DNA of 5,301 nt from Clostridia bacterium (GTDB lineage: Bacteria; UBA6262; WVXT01; JAUXBS01), in the NCBI GenBank assembly GCA_030618495.1, contig JAUXDE010000110.1, positions 1-5,301 of the forward strand. The letters run 5' to 3'. The notes under the pieces are model-generated. The model had not been told where the DNA came from, made no database searches, and worked only from the letters and a program-made list of their open reading frames with translations. The stretch's first letter is position 1, and each line of letters starts with the position of its first letter. The translations under genes were made by a program, and so were the position numbers. Shown in pieces: positions 816 to 5,301 of the stretch.

Positions 816-1259
816 ATGGATTACAAAGAAGAAATAAAAGTATTTTCATCGTTCCTTAAACGCAGGGGCCTGAAACATACCGATCAGAGGGAAGAGATAT
901 TAAAAGCATTTCTTTCGGAAGAAAAACACCTGACCGCCGATGATTTATATCTTCTGGTAATGAAGAAGAATCCTGCCATTGGCCATGCAACGGTATACAG
1001 GACATTGAAGTTATTGTGCGGGGCAAACCTCGCTTCTGAAATCTACCTGAAGGATAACAGGGTGTGCTATGAACATAAGTACGGGCACCGGGCGCACGAG
1101 CACATGGTGTGCGTGCATTGCGGAAAAACGATAGAACTAAGAATACCGGAGATTGAATCATTGGTAAAAAAGGTTGAGAAAGAACATGGTTTTAAGCTTA
1201 ATGACTATGCCTTGAAATTATCCGGCATTTGCGCCAAGTGCGGGAAGGACACTAAATGA
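816..1259 (+). CDS. fur: Fur-family ferric uptake regulator
   Basis: This encodes a 147-residue cytoplasmic metal-dependent repressor, the usual length for Fur. The N-terminal winged helix includes T-D-Q-R-E-E-I-L (about 22-29) and the recognition-helix segment H-A-T-V-Y-R-T-L (57-64). The C-terminal dimerisation and metal domain shows H94-E-H96-M-V-C99-V-H-C102, the family's HxHxxCxxC motif, and a second CxxC pair (C139, C142). Together these form a structural Cys4 zinc site, and nearby His/Glu residues fit a regulatory metal site. The start at 816 has AGGGG (805-809) six bases upstream and gives the expected N-terminus. The gene lies behind a strong Fur box and is the first gene of a feoAB operon, so it most likely senses Fe(II) and represses itself and iron import. 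PerR or Zur cannot be fully excluded from sequence alone, but operator and neighbours favour Fur. Its stop overlaps the feoA start by ATGA (1256-1259). Confidence 0.92.
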   Translation: MDYKEEIKVFSSFLKRRGLKHTDQREEILKAFLSEEKHLTADDLYLLVMKKNPAIGHATVYRTLKLLCGANLASEIYLKDNRVCYEHKYGHRAHEHMVCVHCGKTIELRIPEIESLVKKVEKEHGFKLNDYALKLSGICAKCGKDTK

Positions 1260-1504
1260 AGAGCAATGAAGTAATAACGCTTGCAAAAATGAAACAGGGG
1301 GAAACAGGCACCATCGTTGAAATTGCAGGCGGGCACGGCTTGACGAACAGGCTTGAGCCGATGGGTATACGGGAGGGCGGTAAAGTAAAGAAAGTTAGCG
1401 GCCAGTTGATGAGGGGGCCTATAACCCTCATGGTGGGAAGCACGCACACTGCAATAGGATACGGCATGGCGCAGAAGATACTCGTGGAGGTTGACGGTAA
1501 ATGA
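1256..1504 (+). CDS. feoA: FeoA, small SH3-like protein of ferrous iron transport
   Basis: This 82-residue cytoplasmic protein is the typical size for FeoA. It has the family's small beta-barrel (SH3-like) pattern: an opening L-A-K-M-K-Q-G-E-T-G segment (9-18), the hallmark L-E-P-M-G-I-R-E-G (33-41), and the strand region G-P-I-T-L-M-V-G (54-61) leading into the final I-L-V-E-V. FeoA is thought to bind FeoB and support Fe(II) transport or the FeoB GTPase; its exact mechanism is unsettled. The start ATG overlaps the fur stop codon, with AAGGA (1245-1249) six bases upstream inside fur. Its own stop overlaps the feoB start (1501-1504). The overlaps and shared promoter indicate a co-transcribed, translationally coupled fur-feoA-feoB unit. 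No feoC-like gene is seen. Confidence 0.93.
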   Translation: MKSNEVITLAKMKQGETGTIVEIAGGHGLTNRLEPMGIREGGKVKKVSGQLMRGPITLMVGSTHTAIGYGMAQKILVEVDGK

Positions 1505-3204
1505 AGATATTGCTGGTGGGCAATCCCAATGTCGGCAAGAGTGTTGTATTTACAAGGCTTACCGGTGTTGATGTGATAGCGTCAAATTATCCTGGTACGA
1601 CCGTTGGATTTACCGAAGGAAAGCTGAAACTGGATAAGGAATTCGCTGATGTTGTGGACGTGCCGGGGATATATTCCCTTGAAGCGGCATCGAAGGCGGA
1701 GGAAGTTGCCGTAAAGATGCTTGAAGAAGGCGATGTAATAATTAATGTAATAGATTCAACCAACATTGAAAGGAACCTGAACCTCACGCTCCAGCTTGTA
1801 AGGATGGGCAAGCCAATGCTCGTGATCCTTAACTTCTGGGATGAAACCCATCACAGGGGCATACACATTGATGTTGAAAAACTTGAGAAGCTTCTGGGTG
1901 TTCCGTGCATTACCGCATGCGCTGTTTCCGGGGAGGGGATAAACCATATTGTAACGAGGCTTGCGGAAGCAAAGGTCAGTTCCTTCAAGTACAATGAGAA
2001 GGAAAGGTTCCATGAGGTAGGTAACATTGTAAGCAGTGTCCAGAACCTTGAACACAGGCACCACACGTTGATGGACAGGCTGGGGGAGCTGACGGTAATG
2101 CCGTTTACGGGGATACCGTTTGCGGTATTTGTAATGGCGCTAACGTTTGTGGTAATAAGGTTTATCGGCGAGGGATTGATTACCCGTGTGTTTGACCCTC
2201 TTTTTGAAAAGATTTGGGCTCCACTGGTAATGAAACTTTCGGGCGTTCTTGGTTCAACGGGATTCATTCATGATATCTTAATCGGAAAGTTAACGGACGG
2301 GGGAATAGATTTTGTGCAGTCCTTCGGGCTTATTACGACCGGCCTGTACGTACCCGTGGCCATGGTCCTGCCCTATATATTATCCTTTTACCTGATATTA
2401 AGTGTTTTAGAGGACATGGGTTACCTGCCCCGGCTTGCGGTGCTCGTGGATAACCTCATGCACAGGCTGGGGCTTCACGGGCTGGCAATAGTTCCCATGT
2501 TTCTGAGTTTCGGCTGTAATGTTCCGGGTATCATGGCAACAAGGATACTTGAATCCAGGAAACAGCGCTTCATATGCGTGGCGTTAATGTGCATATGCGT
2601 GCCGTGCATGTCGCAGTCCGCGATGATAATAAGCCTTTTAGGCAAACACGGGATAAGCGGATTGGGCATGGTTTTCCTGACACTGTTTATTGTGTGGACA
2701 TTGCTTGGTTTTATCCTGAAGAAGTTGATAAAAGAGGAAACGCCGGAGATATTCGTTGAAATCCCGTCATACCGCCTGCCCCACATGGGAGCGTTGATTA
2801 AAAAACTCTGGATGAGGCTCAGGTGGTTTCTGAAGGAGGCAATCCCCTTTGTTATCCTTGGGGTATTCGTAATGAATATCCTTTATACCTTAGGCATAAT
2901 AGATTTCATAGGCTCGCTCATGCAGCCCGTTGTCACGGGAATCCTCGGACTCCCGAAGGAAGCGGTAATGTCAATGCTTATCGGTTTTTTAAGGAAGGAT
3001 GTTGCGGTAGGGATGCTTGTTCCCCTGGGGCTGAGTTTAAAACAGCTTATAATAGCAAGCGTGGTTCTCACCATGTACTTTCCCTGTATCGCCTCTTTTG
3101 TCGTTCTTTTCAAGGAACTTGGATTAAAGGACATGATAAAAGCGGCGCTTCTTATGATTTTCACATCGTTATTCGTGGGCGGAATTCTGAACATAATACT
3201 GTAA
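1501..3204 (+). CDS. feoB: FeoB, GTP-binding ferrous iron transporter
   Basis: This 567-residue inner-membrane Fe(II) permease has an N-terminal G-protein domain. G1/P-loop G-N-P-N-V-G-K-S is at 7-14, the switch I segment N-Y-P-G-T-T-V-G is at 29-36, G3 D-V-P-G is at 53-56, G4 is N-F-W-D (111-114, where FeoB often has NMxD), and G5 is around A-V-S-G-E-G (141-146). A short helical linker (about 160-200) follows. About eight or nine hydrophobic segments come next (near 203-222, 283-303, 325-345, 357-380, 386-408, 444-466, 490-510, 515-537, 547-566). The two Cys-containing gate motifs are present: F-G-C-N-V-P-G (337-343) and Y-F-P-C-I-A-S (526-532). The E-D-M-G-Y-L-P-R-L-A segment (304-313) is also typical. 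It is shorter than E. coli FeoB (about 770 residues), mainly through a reduced linker and no extended cytoplasmic tail, yet has every core element. GGAGG (1486-1490) precedes the start by ten bases, and the start overlaps the feoA stop. It is expected to be Fur-repressed. Confidence 0.95.
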   Translation: MKILLVGNPNVGKSVVFTRLTGVDVIASNYPGTTVGFTEGKLKLDKEFADVVDVPGIYSLEAASKAEEVAVKMLEEGDVIINVIDSTNIERNLNLTLQLVRMGKPMLVILNFWDETHHRGIHIDVEKLEKLLGVPCITACAVSGEGINHIVTRLAEAKVSSFKYNEKERFHEVGNIVSSVQNLEHRHHTLMDRLGELTVMPFTGIPFAVFVMALTFVVIRFIGEGLITRVFDPLFEKIWAPLVMKLSGVLGSTGFIHDILIGKLTDGGIDFVQSFGLITTGLYVPVAMVLPYILSFYLILSVLEDMGYLPRLAVLVDNLMHRLGLHGLAIVPMFLSFGCNVPGIMATRILESRKQRFICVALMCICVPCMSQSAMIISLLGKHGISGLGMVFLTLFIVWTLLGFILKKLIKEETPEIFVEIPSYRLPHMGALIKKLWMRLRWFLKEAIPFVILGVFVMNILYTLGIIDFIGSLMQPVVTGILGLPKEAVMSMLIGFLRKDVAVGMLVPLGLSLKQLIIASVVLTMYFPCIASFVVLFKELGLKDMIKAALLMIFTSLFVGGILNIIL

Positions 3205-3221
3205 AATAATTATTTATTTTC

Positions 3222-3250
3222 TTGACAGGATTAAATCCCTGTGCTATAAT
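3222..3250 (+). promoter_or_regulatory. strong promoter of the rrf2-cysK-hcyA operon
   Basis: A perfect TTGACA (3222-3227) and a perfect TATAAT (3245-3250) are separated by exactly 17 bases, with TG at 3242-3243 giving an extended -10. The AT-only stretch just upstream (3203-3220) could act as an UP element. The expected start is about 3256-3258, leaving a leader of about 34 bases. Such a near-ideal promoter would be very active unless repressed, which fits the inverted repeat lying across the -10 and start site. Confidence 0.88.
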
Positions 3251-3278
3251 ATCACTAAAGCGGTAGTAATAGTGATAT
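3249..3278. promoter_or_regulatory. inverted repeat, likely operator of the Rrf2 regulator
   Basis: Perfect 9-base arms ATATCACTA (3249-3257) and TAGTGATAT (3270-3278) are separated by 12 bases. The left arm overlaps the last two bases of the -10 and the predicted start site, so a bound protein would compete with RNA polymerase. An extra TAGT lies at 3264-3267, giving an alternative inner pair ACTA-N6-TAGT (3254-3267). The gene immediately downstream encodes an Rrf2-family regulator, and these commonly repress their own operon. The site is visible; its ligand is inferred. As RNA it could also fold into a hairpin just before the ribosome binding site, but there is no T-run, so it is not a terminator. 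Confidence 0.7.
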
Positions 3279-3290
3279 AAGGAGATTACC

Positions 3291-3737
3291 ATGAAACTTT
3301 CCACTAAGGGACGTTACGGGGCCAGGGCGATGCTTGAACTGGCGCTTAATTATAAGAAGGGTAGTATGCCTCTTAATGAAATTGCAAGAAAGCAGGATGT
3401 TTCAGAGAGGTACCTTGAACGCATGATGAGCGCCCTGGTTTCCGCGGGGTTTGCAAGGAGTTCAAGGGGCAAGGGGGGCGGATTCAGCCTGGCAAAACCG
3501 CCCGGAAAAATCCGTTTGAGCCAGGTGATTCAGGTTGTTGAAGGTTCAATTGCCCCCGTGGAATGTATTGATAATCCCAAGTTCTGTAACCGGGTTGATA
3601 CGTGTATAACACGCGACATCTGGACAAAATTAAAGAATGCAATGTTGGAGGTTCTTGATTCAGTAACCCTTGAAGATATGGTTAAGATGCAAAAGAAAAA
3701 GATGATAAAATCAAAGGAACGGATGTACTATATTTAA
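3291..3737 (+). CDS. Rrf2-family transcriptional regulator, CymR-like with three cysteines
   Basis: This 148-residue winged-helix repressor begins with the Rrf2 signature M-K-L-S-T-K-G-R-Y-G and continues with the recognition region D-V-S-E-R-Y-L-E-R-M-M (36-46) and wing S-R-G-K-G-G-G-F-S-L-A (58-68). Three cysteines C92, C99 and C105 (C-x6-C-x5-C) occupy the place of the Fe-S ligands of IscR and NsrR (C-x5-C-x5-C). The rest resembles CymR, the master regulator of cysteine metabolism in Bacillus: I-A-P-V-E (87-91), V-L-D-S-V-T-L-E-D (121-129) and a C-terminal M-Y-Y-I. CymR binds CysK as a partner, and cysK follows here after 13 bases. AAGGAG (3279-3284) sits six bases before the start. The probable role is repression of this operon in response to cysteine/O-acetylserine and possibly an Fe-S cluster. 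Whether it should be called CymR or IscR-like is not settled, so no symbol is given. Confidence 0.88.
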   Translation: MKLSTKGRYGARAMLELALNYKKGSMPLNEIARKQDVSERYLERMMSALVSAGFARSSRGKGGGFSLAKPPGKIRLSQVIQVVEGSIAPVECIDNPKFCNRVDTCITRDIWTKLKNAMLEVLDSVTLEDMVKMQKKKMIKSKERMYYI

Positions 3738-3750
3738 ACGGAGGTAAGAG

Positions 3751-4683
3751 ATGGCTAAAATCGCAAATGATGTAACTGAATTAGTAGGGAATACGCCGCT
3801 GGTAAGGCTGGGCAGAATAGCGGCAGGGGTAAAGGCGGAAGTCATCGGGAAACTTGAATATTTTAATCCCTGCGGGAGTGTAAAGGATAGAATCGGGTTG
3901 AGTATGATTGTTGCGGCCGAGAAAAAAGGTTCGTTAAAATACGGCTATCAGGTTATCGAGCCTACCAGCGGGAACACGGGTATAGCCCTTGCATTTGTAT
4001 GCGCGGTCAAGGGATACAAACTTATCCTCACCATGCCGGATTCGATGAGTGTTGAACGCAGGATGATACTGGAGGCGCTGGGAGCTGAAATCGTTCTGAC
4101 CCCGGGAAGCGATGGGATGAAGGGGGCGGTGGATAAGGCTAAGGAGATTGCAAAGAAAAACGAGAAAACAGTTCTGCTTCAGCAGTTCAATAATCCCGCT
4201 AATCCCCAAATCCACCGGGATACCACGGCGCAGGAGATATGGAAGGATACGGACGGTAAAGTTGATATCCTCGTTTCCGGAGTCGGAACGGGCGGAACGA
4301 TTACGGGTATTGCGGAAGCGCTCAAAAAGAAAAAGCCGTCGTTTAGGGCAGTTGCGGTTGAGCCGGAAGATTCGCCTGTCCTTTCAGGCGGGAAGCCGGG
4401 GCCGCACAAGATCCAGGGGATTGGCGCCGGTTTCGTTCCGGAAATCCTGAACAGGAAAATTATTGATAAAGTAATTAAGGTATCCAACGAAGATGCCATG
4501 GTCACTGCCAGGCGACTGGCAAGGGAGGAAGGCATATTTGCCGGAATATCTTCAGGAGCTGCGGTTTACGCGGCATTGGAAGTCGCAAAGAAGAAAACAA
4601 ATGAGGGAAAGCTTATCGTAACGATACTACCCGATTTAGGCGACCGTTATCTTTCAACGGAGCTATTCCAGGTGAAAAAGTAA
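3751..4683 (+). CDS. cysK: cysteine synthase (O-acetylserine sulfhydrylase)
   Basis: This 310-residue cytoplasmic PLP enzyme of fold type II makes L-cysteine and acetate from O-acetyl-L-serine and sulfide. The length is normal for the family. The opening [10 protein letters not shown] (11-20) is typical. The PLP Schiff-base lysine is K45 in G-S-V-K-D-R (42-47); the substrate-binding loop T-S-G-N-T-G spans 72-77; the phosphate-binding loop G-T-G-G-T-I-T-G spans 179-186; and G-I-S-S-G-A (265-270) supplies the serine near the pyridine nitrogen. The Q-G-I-G-A-G-F-V-P segment (222-230) closes over the active site in this family. GGAGGT (3740-3745) lies five bases before the start. The gene follows the Rrf2 regulator by 13 bases and is clearly co-transcribed. 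Besides catalysis it may bind the regulator's C-terminal tail, as CysK does with CymR. Cystathionine beta-synthase or CysM are less likely, because the protein has CysK motifs throughout and no CBS domain. Confidence 0.94.
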
Positions 4684-4698
4684 TTTTAGGAGGAGGCA

Positions 4699-4800
4699 AT
4701 GATGTTATGTATTATGCGCAGCCCTGTAGAAGGGCTAACGGTAAGTATTAAGGAGCATTATTCTGCATGTGTGTTGGTTAATATGAGAGTTAATAAATAA
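4699..4800 (+). CDS. possible small ORF of 33 codons between cysK and hcyA
   Basis: This short open frame (stop TAA 4798-4800) fills most of the 127-base gap between cysK and hcyA. It starts 15 bases after the cysK stop and ends 10 bases before the hcyA ATG. It is preceded by an unusually strong AGGAGGAGG (4688-4696), which fits initiation at 4699 or at the adjacent ATG 4702. The peptide would begin M-M-L-C-I-M-R-S-P, with cysteines at 4 and 24 and no recognisable domain. The ribosome binding site and tight spacing argue for translation, at least as a bridge that carries ribosomes to hcyA. A two-Cys leader peptide is also conceivable. There is no homology I recognise, so it may be a chance ORF or the remnant of a longer gene. 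Confidence 0.4.
   Translation: MMLCIMRSPVEGLTVSIKEHYSACVLVNMRVNK
4720..4736 (+). other. small RNA hairpin between cysK and hcyA
   Basis: AGCCCT (4720-4725) and AGGGCT (4731-4736) form a perfect 6-bp stem with a 5-base loop in the cysK-hcyA gap, inside the small ORF. No T-run follows, so it is not a standard terminator. It could adjust hcyA expression relative to cysK by mRNA processing or pausing, or be incidental. Confidence 0.35.
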
Positions 4801-4810
4801 AGGAGAAGAG

Positions 4811-5301
4811 ATGGCAAAAACAATCAATGAGATAAACGACAGAATCAGCAAGGGGAAGGCTGTTATAGTAACAGCTGAGGAGATTATTGATATAGTAGAG
4901 GAAAAGGGCGTTGAAACCGCTGCCCGCGAGGTTGATGTAGTAACAACGGGGACCTTCGGCCCGATGTGTTCGTCAGGCGCGTACCTTAACGTGGGACACA
5001 CCAAGCCAAAGATAAAACTTGGAGGCGGCGACGCGTTTTTAAATGAAGTCCCTGCGTATACGGGTTTTGCGGCAGTTGATATTTACATCGGGGCCACGGC
5101 GCTTCCAAATGAAGACCCCAGGAACAAGGTTTATCCCGGGGAGTTCAAATACGGCGGCGGACACGTGATAGAAGAACTGGTGGCGGGAAAGGACGTACGG
5201 CTTACCGCAAAGGCGTACGGTACCGACTGCTATCCCGGGAGGAAGCTCGATACCTGGATAAACATCAAGGACGTCAACGAGGCAGTGCTGTTCAATCCAA
5301 G
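4811..5301 (+). CDS. homocysteine biosynthesis protein HcyA (HcyBio/DUF39), 3' end outside window
   Basis: The first 163 codons are present and the frame is still open at the window edge. The N-terminus M-A-K-T-I-N-E-I-N-D, followed by a K-G-K-A-V-I-V-T-A-E-E segment and T-T-G-T-F-G-P-M-C-S-S-G (45-56), is the hallmark of the HcyBio family (DUF39, methanogen MA1821-like). C53 in P-M-C-S-S-G and C140 in G-T-D-C-Y-P are the conspicuous cysteines; the family is believed to use a cysteine persulfide to place sulfur. In methanogens the protein, with a small ferredoxin partner (HcyB), is needed to make homocysteine from aspartate semialdehyde and sulfide, bypassing O-acyl-homoserine. AGGAG (4801-4805) is five bases before the start. 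Its place after rrf2-cysK suggests one operon for sulfide assimilation into both sulfur amino acids. Any C-terminal CBS or ferredoxin part, or a separate HcyB gene, would be beyond the window. Confidence 0.88.
   Translation, partial: MAKTINEINDRISKGKAVIVTAEEIIDIVEEKGVETAAREVDVVTTGTFGPMCSSGAYLNVGHTKPKIKLGGGDAFLNEVPAYTGFAAVDIYIGATALPNEDPRNKVYPGEFKYGGGHVIEELVAGKDVRLTAKAYGTDCYPGRKLDTWINIKDVNEAVLFNP

Follow-up and report, generated by a model that had tools for sequence, protein, structure and literature searches.

An Rrf2-family regulator with a C-terminal tail resembling CysK ligands and putative Fe-S ligand cysteines, encoded directly upstream of cysK

A 5,301-nucleotide stretch of Clostridia bacterium DNA (contig JAUXDE010000110.1, hereafter the window) encodes an Rrf2-family regulator directly upstream of cysK. 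By analogy with CymR, the regulator most likely represses its own unit, with CysK stabilising it on DNA. Regulator-cysK pairs of this kind proved frequent among bacteria. Reading it as a CysK partner is well supported, if unproven, by comparison across genomes. The tail of the regulator, together with the adjacent cysK, suggests that CysK itself reports the cell's need for cysteine to the regulator. The whole model, in which the self-repressor would place its tail in the CysK active site, be released by O-acetylserine and receive a second signal through an Fe-S cluster, appears fairly probable.

The Rrf2-cysK operon, its promoter and a candidate operator

The window belongs to a genome of 1.69 Mb that is 98% complete. 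It contains the following features.

1-672: 3' end of an ISNCY-type transposase gene that runs in across the window start
816-3204: fur-feoA-feoB, directly upstream of the Rrf2-cysK unit
3222..3250, + strand: sigma-70 type promoter, TTGACA-17-TATAAT (12/12), with an extended -10
3249..3278, strand not applicable: candidate operator ATATCACTA-N12-TAGTGATAT, a perfect 9-bp inverted repeat over -10/+1
3291..3737, + strand: Rrf2-family regulator, 148 aa (family profiles, alignment and predicted fold)
3564..3605, + strand: codons C92 to C105 of the regulator, with the putative Fe-S ligands C92, C99 and C105, invariant in alignment A1
3723..3734, + strand: codons of the M-Y-Y-I tail (ATG TAC TAT ATT, then the TAA stop)
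3751..4683, + strand: cysK, O-acetylserine sulfhydrylase, 310 aa (TIGR01139 and pocket segments)
4699..4800, + strand: small ORF, 33 aa, with a strong RBS
4811..5299, + strand: HcyBio (PF01837), homocysteine biosynthesis enzyme of the same predicted operon, truncated by the window end

The ORF calls agree with a preliminary description of this DNA in that the Rrf2 stop and the cysK start are exactly 13 bases apart and the regulator C-terminus reads M-Y-Y-I. Gaps of 13, 15 and 10 bases separate the regulator, cysK, the small ORF and HcyBio, and nothing resembling a terminator turned up from 3150 to 4850. Thus, the four genes are probably co-transcribed.

The candidate operator, with the consensus ATCACTAAAACGgTAgtAaTAgTaaT, recurs by the -10 element in 11 orthologues (leave-one-out z 5.7-11.5), in three of which the next gene is cysH. 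Conservation of a palindrome over the promoter -10/+1 indicates that the unit very probably represses itself. Scanning the window's own genome with up to 3 mismatches recovered no operator site beyond the local one at 3249-3278, and matches to a looser pattern were no more frequent there than those to its reversed control. Neither scan yielded a genome-wide regulon. In the Chloroflexi loci L007-L010, the Rrf2 promoters bear a different palindrome, about GTTGACTAAATTAGTCAAC.

Two further features of the locus were observed. The start of the small ORF is conserved in several cysK-HcyBio loci (the window, L006 at 3325-3448, L008, L010, L050 and L053), with the pattern [LV]-[WC]-x-M-(R), a DNA sequence of about TATGGAYNATGCG and a strong RBS; a small GC hairpin 3' of this start is weakly supported (4 pairs). 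An Rfam search that included the small ORF returned no match, and outside cysK-HcyBio loci the pattern had four matches in 290 genomes, none of them leader-like: two lie in a tandem repeat and two apparently within other coding sequence. Separately, two distant genomes, those of the window and of G043 (L020), have feoB directly 5' of the Rrf2-cysK pair, hinting at either an iron link or shared transfer.

Family assignment, conserved cysteines and predicted fold of the regulator

The regulator belongs to the Rrf2 superfamily by PF02082 (4.1e-40, 137.4 bits against a cut-off of 30) and scores 138.6 bits against TIGR00738, above the cut-off of 73.3. It stays below both the curated CymR cut-off (NF047409, 131.7 versus 195 bits) and that for IscR (TIGR02010, 114.2 versus 207.55 bits). 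As a positive control for NF047409, the protein of locus L033 reached 235.9 bits (cut-off 195) and is a bona fide CymR. No isc or suf gene adjoins the window regulator, which has cysK and HcyBio downstream and feoB upstream. Its best sequence match in the PDB is the Thermincola potens IscR (4cic chain A), which likewise ends in MYYI. An AlphaFold2 model (pLDDT 88) has its best fold matches in CymR (top Foldseek hit 2y75) and T. potens IscR and features a long final helix with a low-confidence end. The mean pLDDT of the last 8 residues is 57, so that the tail is probably flexible, as a free tail would be.

Three cysteines, C92, C99 and C105, are spaced C-x6-C-x5-C and are invariant in ten orthologues with 45-76% identity to the window regulator (alignment A1); they probably hold an Fe-S cluster. 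By a loose pattern, three cysteines also occur in this region in 66 of the 73 tailed Rrf2 proteins of the survey described below and in all the tail-less ones. The CymR of L033 has the tail and lacks the cysteines. The preliminary description had called the regulator CymR-like, which is apt for its aromatic-x-Ile tail but not for its profile score, which misses the NF047409 cut-off, or for the three cysteines at Fe-S ligand positions.

The invariant cysteines, the MYYI-ended IscR as nearest PDB sequence and fur-feoA-feoB just upstream would all suit an IscR-like regulator that senses only cluster status or iron, its tail being a relic of an ancestral CysK-binding regulator without a present role. 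We consider this unlikely, since a useless terminal Ile would not stay invariant beside a varying linker and since the presence of the tail follows cysK linkage, as documented in the next section. In the favoured model of a CysK-partnered repressor, the Fe-S cluster is possibly a second input.

Distribution of the tail and its link to cysK

Genes matching the window protein were collected from 120 genomes and named MAG loci, giving 162 complete Rrf2 proteins; sampled relatives outside the genus and order of the window genome share no taxonomic rank with it below the domain. A C-terminal [FYW]-x-I was present in 73 of the 162, a share (45%) that is not that among all Rrf2 proteins because the sample was picked by similarity to the window protein. 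It was present in one of 508 adjoining genes, each encoding at least 150 aa, that served as the neighbour control. The tail frequency among the surveyed Rrf2 proteins is far above chance. The 73 tailed proteins represent 56 genomes plus 9 MAG loci. Their position -3 is Tyr in 58, Phe in 14 and Trp in 1 and their position -1 is Ile, both being set by the class definition; position -4 is Met in 32 of the 73, and positions -5 to -11 vary freely. Thus, the end of the tail is conserved while the linker drifts. Conservation of the terminal Ile among close homologues was borne out by alignment A1, in which Ile148 is invariant, and the CymR ending -F-Y-I given in the preliminary description was recovered in L033, which ends in M-F-Y-I.

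One close relative, 52% identical to the window regulator and with cysK two genes downstream, at first resembled a tail-less exception (L019, 1870-1960). An alternative frame of this gene gives ...IVYNI-stop at the same spot, an ending of a kind found 4 times in 1296 control frames. The apparent tail loss is therefore a probable frameshift, in the gene or in the assembly, and L019 was rejected as an exception.

Of the 29 regulators whose gene is directly followed by cysK, 27 carry the tail, compared with 46 of the 133 others (Fisher 5.6e-9); the linked exceptions are L074, which ends in Y-Y-L, and L069, which has no tail. A sulphur-assimilation gene lies within three genes of 52 of the 73 tailed and 15 of the 89 tail-less Rrf2 genes. 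The association between tail and cysK gave p of about 0.0003 under tree simulation, in which the tail was described by a fitted two-state model that was run 3000 times on the maximum-likelihood tree with weak branches trusted. An independent-pairs test on supported branches, underpowered with only 5-8 pairs, was not significant.

The tail is not confined to regulators beside cysK, contrary to a possibility that the preliminary description had raised for the terminal Ile. Tailed Rrf2 genes that lack an adjacent cysK neighbour cysH, metY, sulphite reductase, cysE or iscS, and tails also occur in unlinked regulators. cysK was found above cut-off in 30 of 32 genomes with tailed, cysK-unlinked regulators and in 20 of 32 genomes without the tail (p = 0.005). 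The tail thus appears to mark a cysteine-related Rrf2 group and not only its adjacent form. Nor are linked pairs, put forward in the preliminary description as a compact form of the system, a new form. Besides the 29 linked cases found here, Clostridium acetobutylicum CAC2236 (CymR), directly upstream of CAC2235 (CysK), was reported in 2013 (PMC3828012).

The window CysK should be able to accept such a tail. It scores 475.4 bits against TIGR01139 (cut-off 350.95) and shares 63% identity with M. tuberculosis CysK1, the pocket segments of the two (TSGNT, QQF-NPANP and one further 10-residue stretch) being identical. M. tuberculosis CysK1 has been crystallised with a DFSI tail (2Q3C; PMC9547175), and the terminal Ile of CysE contributes about 80% of the CysK binding energy (PMC9547175, PMC12895370). 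The best CysK-binding peptides have an aromatic residue two positions before the Ile. Salmonella CysK binds MNYDI at 0.22 uM and YGYDI at 0.42 uM versus 11.8 uM for the native YGDGI, and in Haemophilus CysK the peptide Tyr becomes part of an aromatic cluster that includes Phe144 and Phe233. The CysE of the window's genome ends in DEKK, without Ile, and so would not compete for CysK by the terminal-Ile route. Among 49 CysE genes in genomes with a tailed regulator, 39 likewise lack the terminal Ile. A trade-off between CysE tails and regulator tails was rejected, since the CysE tail is as infrequent in tailed (10/49) as in tail-less (3/17) genomes (p = 1).

Proposed mechanism and comparison with known systems

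In the proposed mechanism, the regulator would bind the 3249-3278 palindrome over -10/+1 and repress its own operon, and its flexible Met-Tyr-Tyr-Ile tail would enter the CysK active site. Under ample cysteine and low O-acetylserine, CysK would grip the tail and steady the repressor on DNA; a rise in O-acetylserine would displace the tail from CysK and allow expression of the operon. An Fe-S cluster on the three cysteines may add a second signal, reporting iron, redox or Fe-S demand. The direction of the CysK effect is taken from Bacillus. There, CysK prolongs DNA binding by CymR and O-acetylserine breaks the CymR-CysK complex (PMC2940859, PMC3828012). By this analogy, CysK most likely stabilises the repressor here too.

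Since aromatic-x-Ile peptides are potent CysK inhibitors and the genome's own CysE has no such tail, the regulator might instead act as a brake on CysK catalysis, as CysE does, its DNA binding being unaffected by CysK. This is improbable: a repressor would normally be far scarcer than CysK, so that only a small fraction of the enzyme would be inhibited, and in Bacillus CysK stabilises the DNA-bound CymR. An opposite sign, with CysK sequestering the regulator from DNA as an anti-repressor, would presumably leave the same linkage of regulator and enzyme genes; the sign is not readable from sequence. We consider it just as improbable, since CysK has a stabilising effect on the DNA binding of the sole studied relative, CymR.

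CysK as a partner in gene regulation is documented in the accessible literature for Bacillus and staphylococci. The tails surveyed here suggest that the device exists in dozens of bacterial families, chiefly among regulators that have Fe-S ligand positions, and that one mechanism may widely couple cysteine supply to Fe-S status. In the literature searched, mostly non-subscription, no report was found that the tail is widespread in Rrf2 proteins having such positions. The aromatic-x-Ile at the protein end provides a simple sequence mark for these regulators. A broader proposal, plausible if short of probable, is that regulators with dual input from an Fe-S cluster and a CysK-binding tail form a large class found in many bacterial families, in which cysteine supply and Fe-S demand would be signalled by CysK and the cluster together; the cluster-free CymR would be a derived member, and some proteins named IscR, such as that of T. 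potens, would be unrecognised CysK partners.

The already crystallised T. potens IscR (PDB 4cic), the nearest PDB chain by sequence, bears the same mark, and its MYYI end may be an unrecognised CysK ligand. This protein is described as cluster-binding (PMC9338935) and, unlike the role predicted for the window regulator, is reported to sense how much Fe-S cluster is present; the literature searched, with little subscription content, reports no CysK partner for it. CAC2236-CAC2235 shares the regulator gene immediately 5' of cysK and a proposed role as cysteine repressor (PMC3828012), but its host is a Firmicute. The C-terminal Ile that CysE, in the cysteine synthase complex, and the CdiA-CT toxin insert into the CysK active site (PMC12895370) belongs to an enzyme or a toxin, whereas the window protein is a predicted DNA-binding regulator. 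CymR-CysK of Bacillus subtilis and Staphylococcus aureus shares the Rrf2 fold, the C-terminal aromatic-x-Ile and control of cysteine genes with CysK as partner, the last being predicted for the window regulator. CymR is a global regulator without cysteine ligands, whereas three cysteines are present in the window regulator and a single operator is detectable for it.
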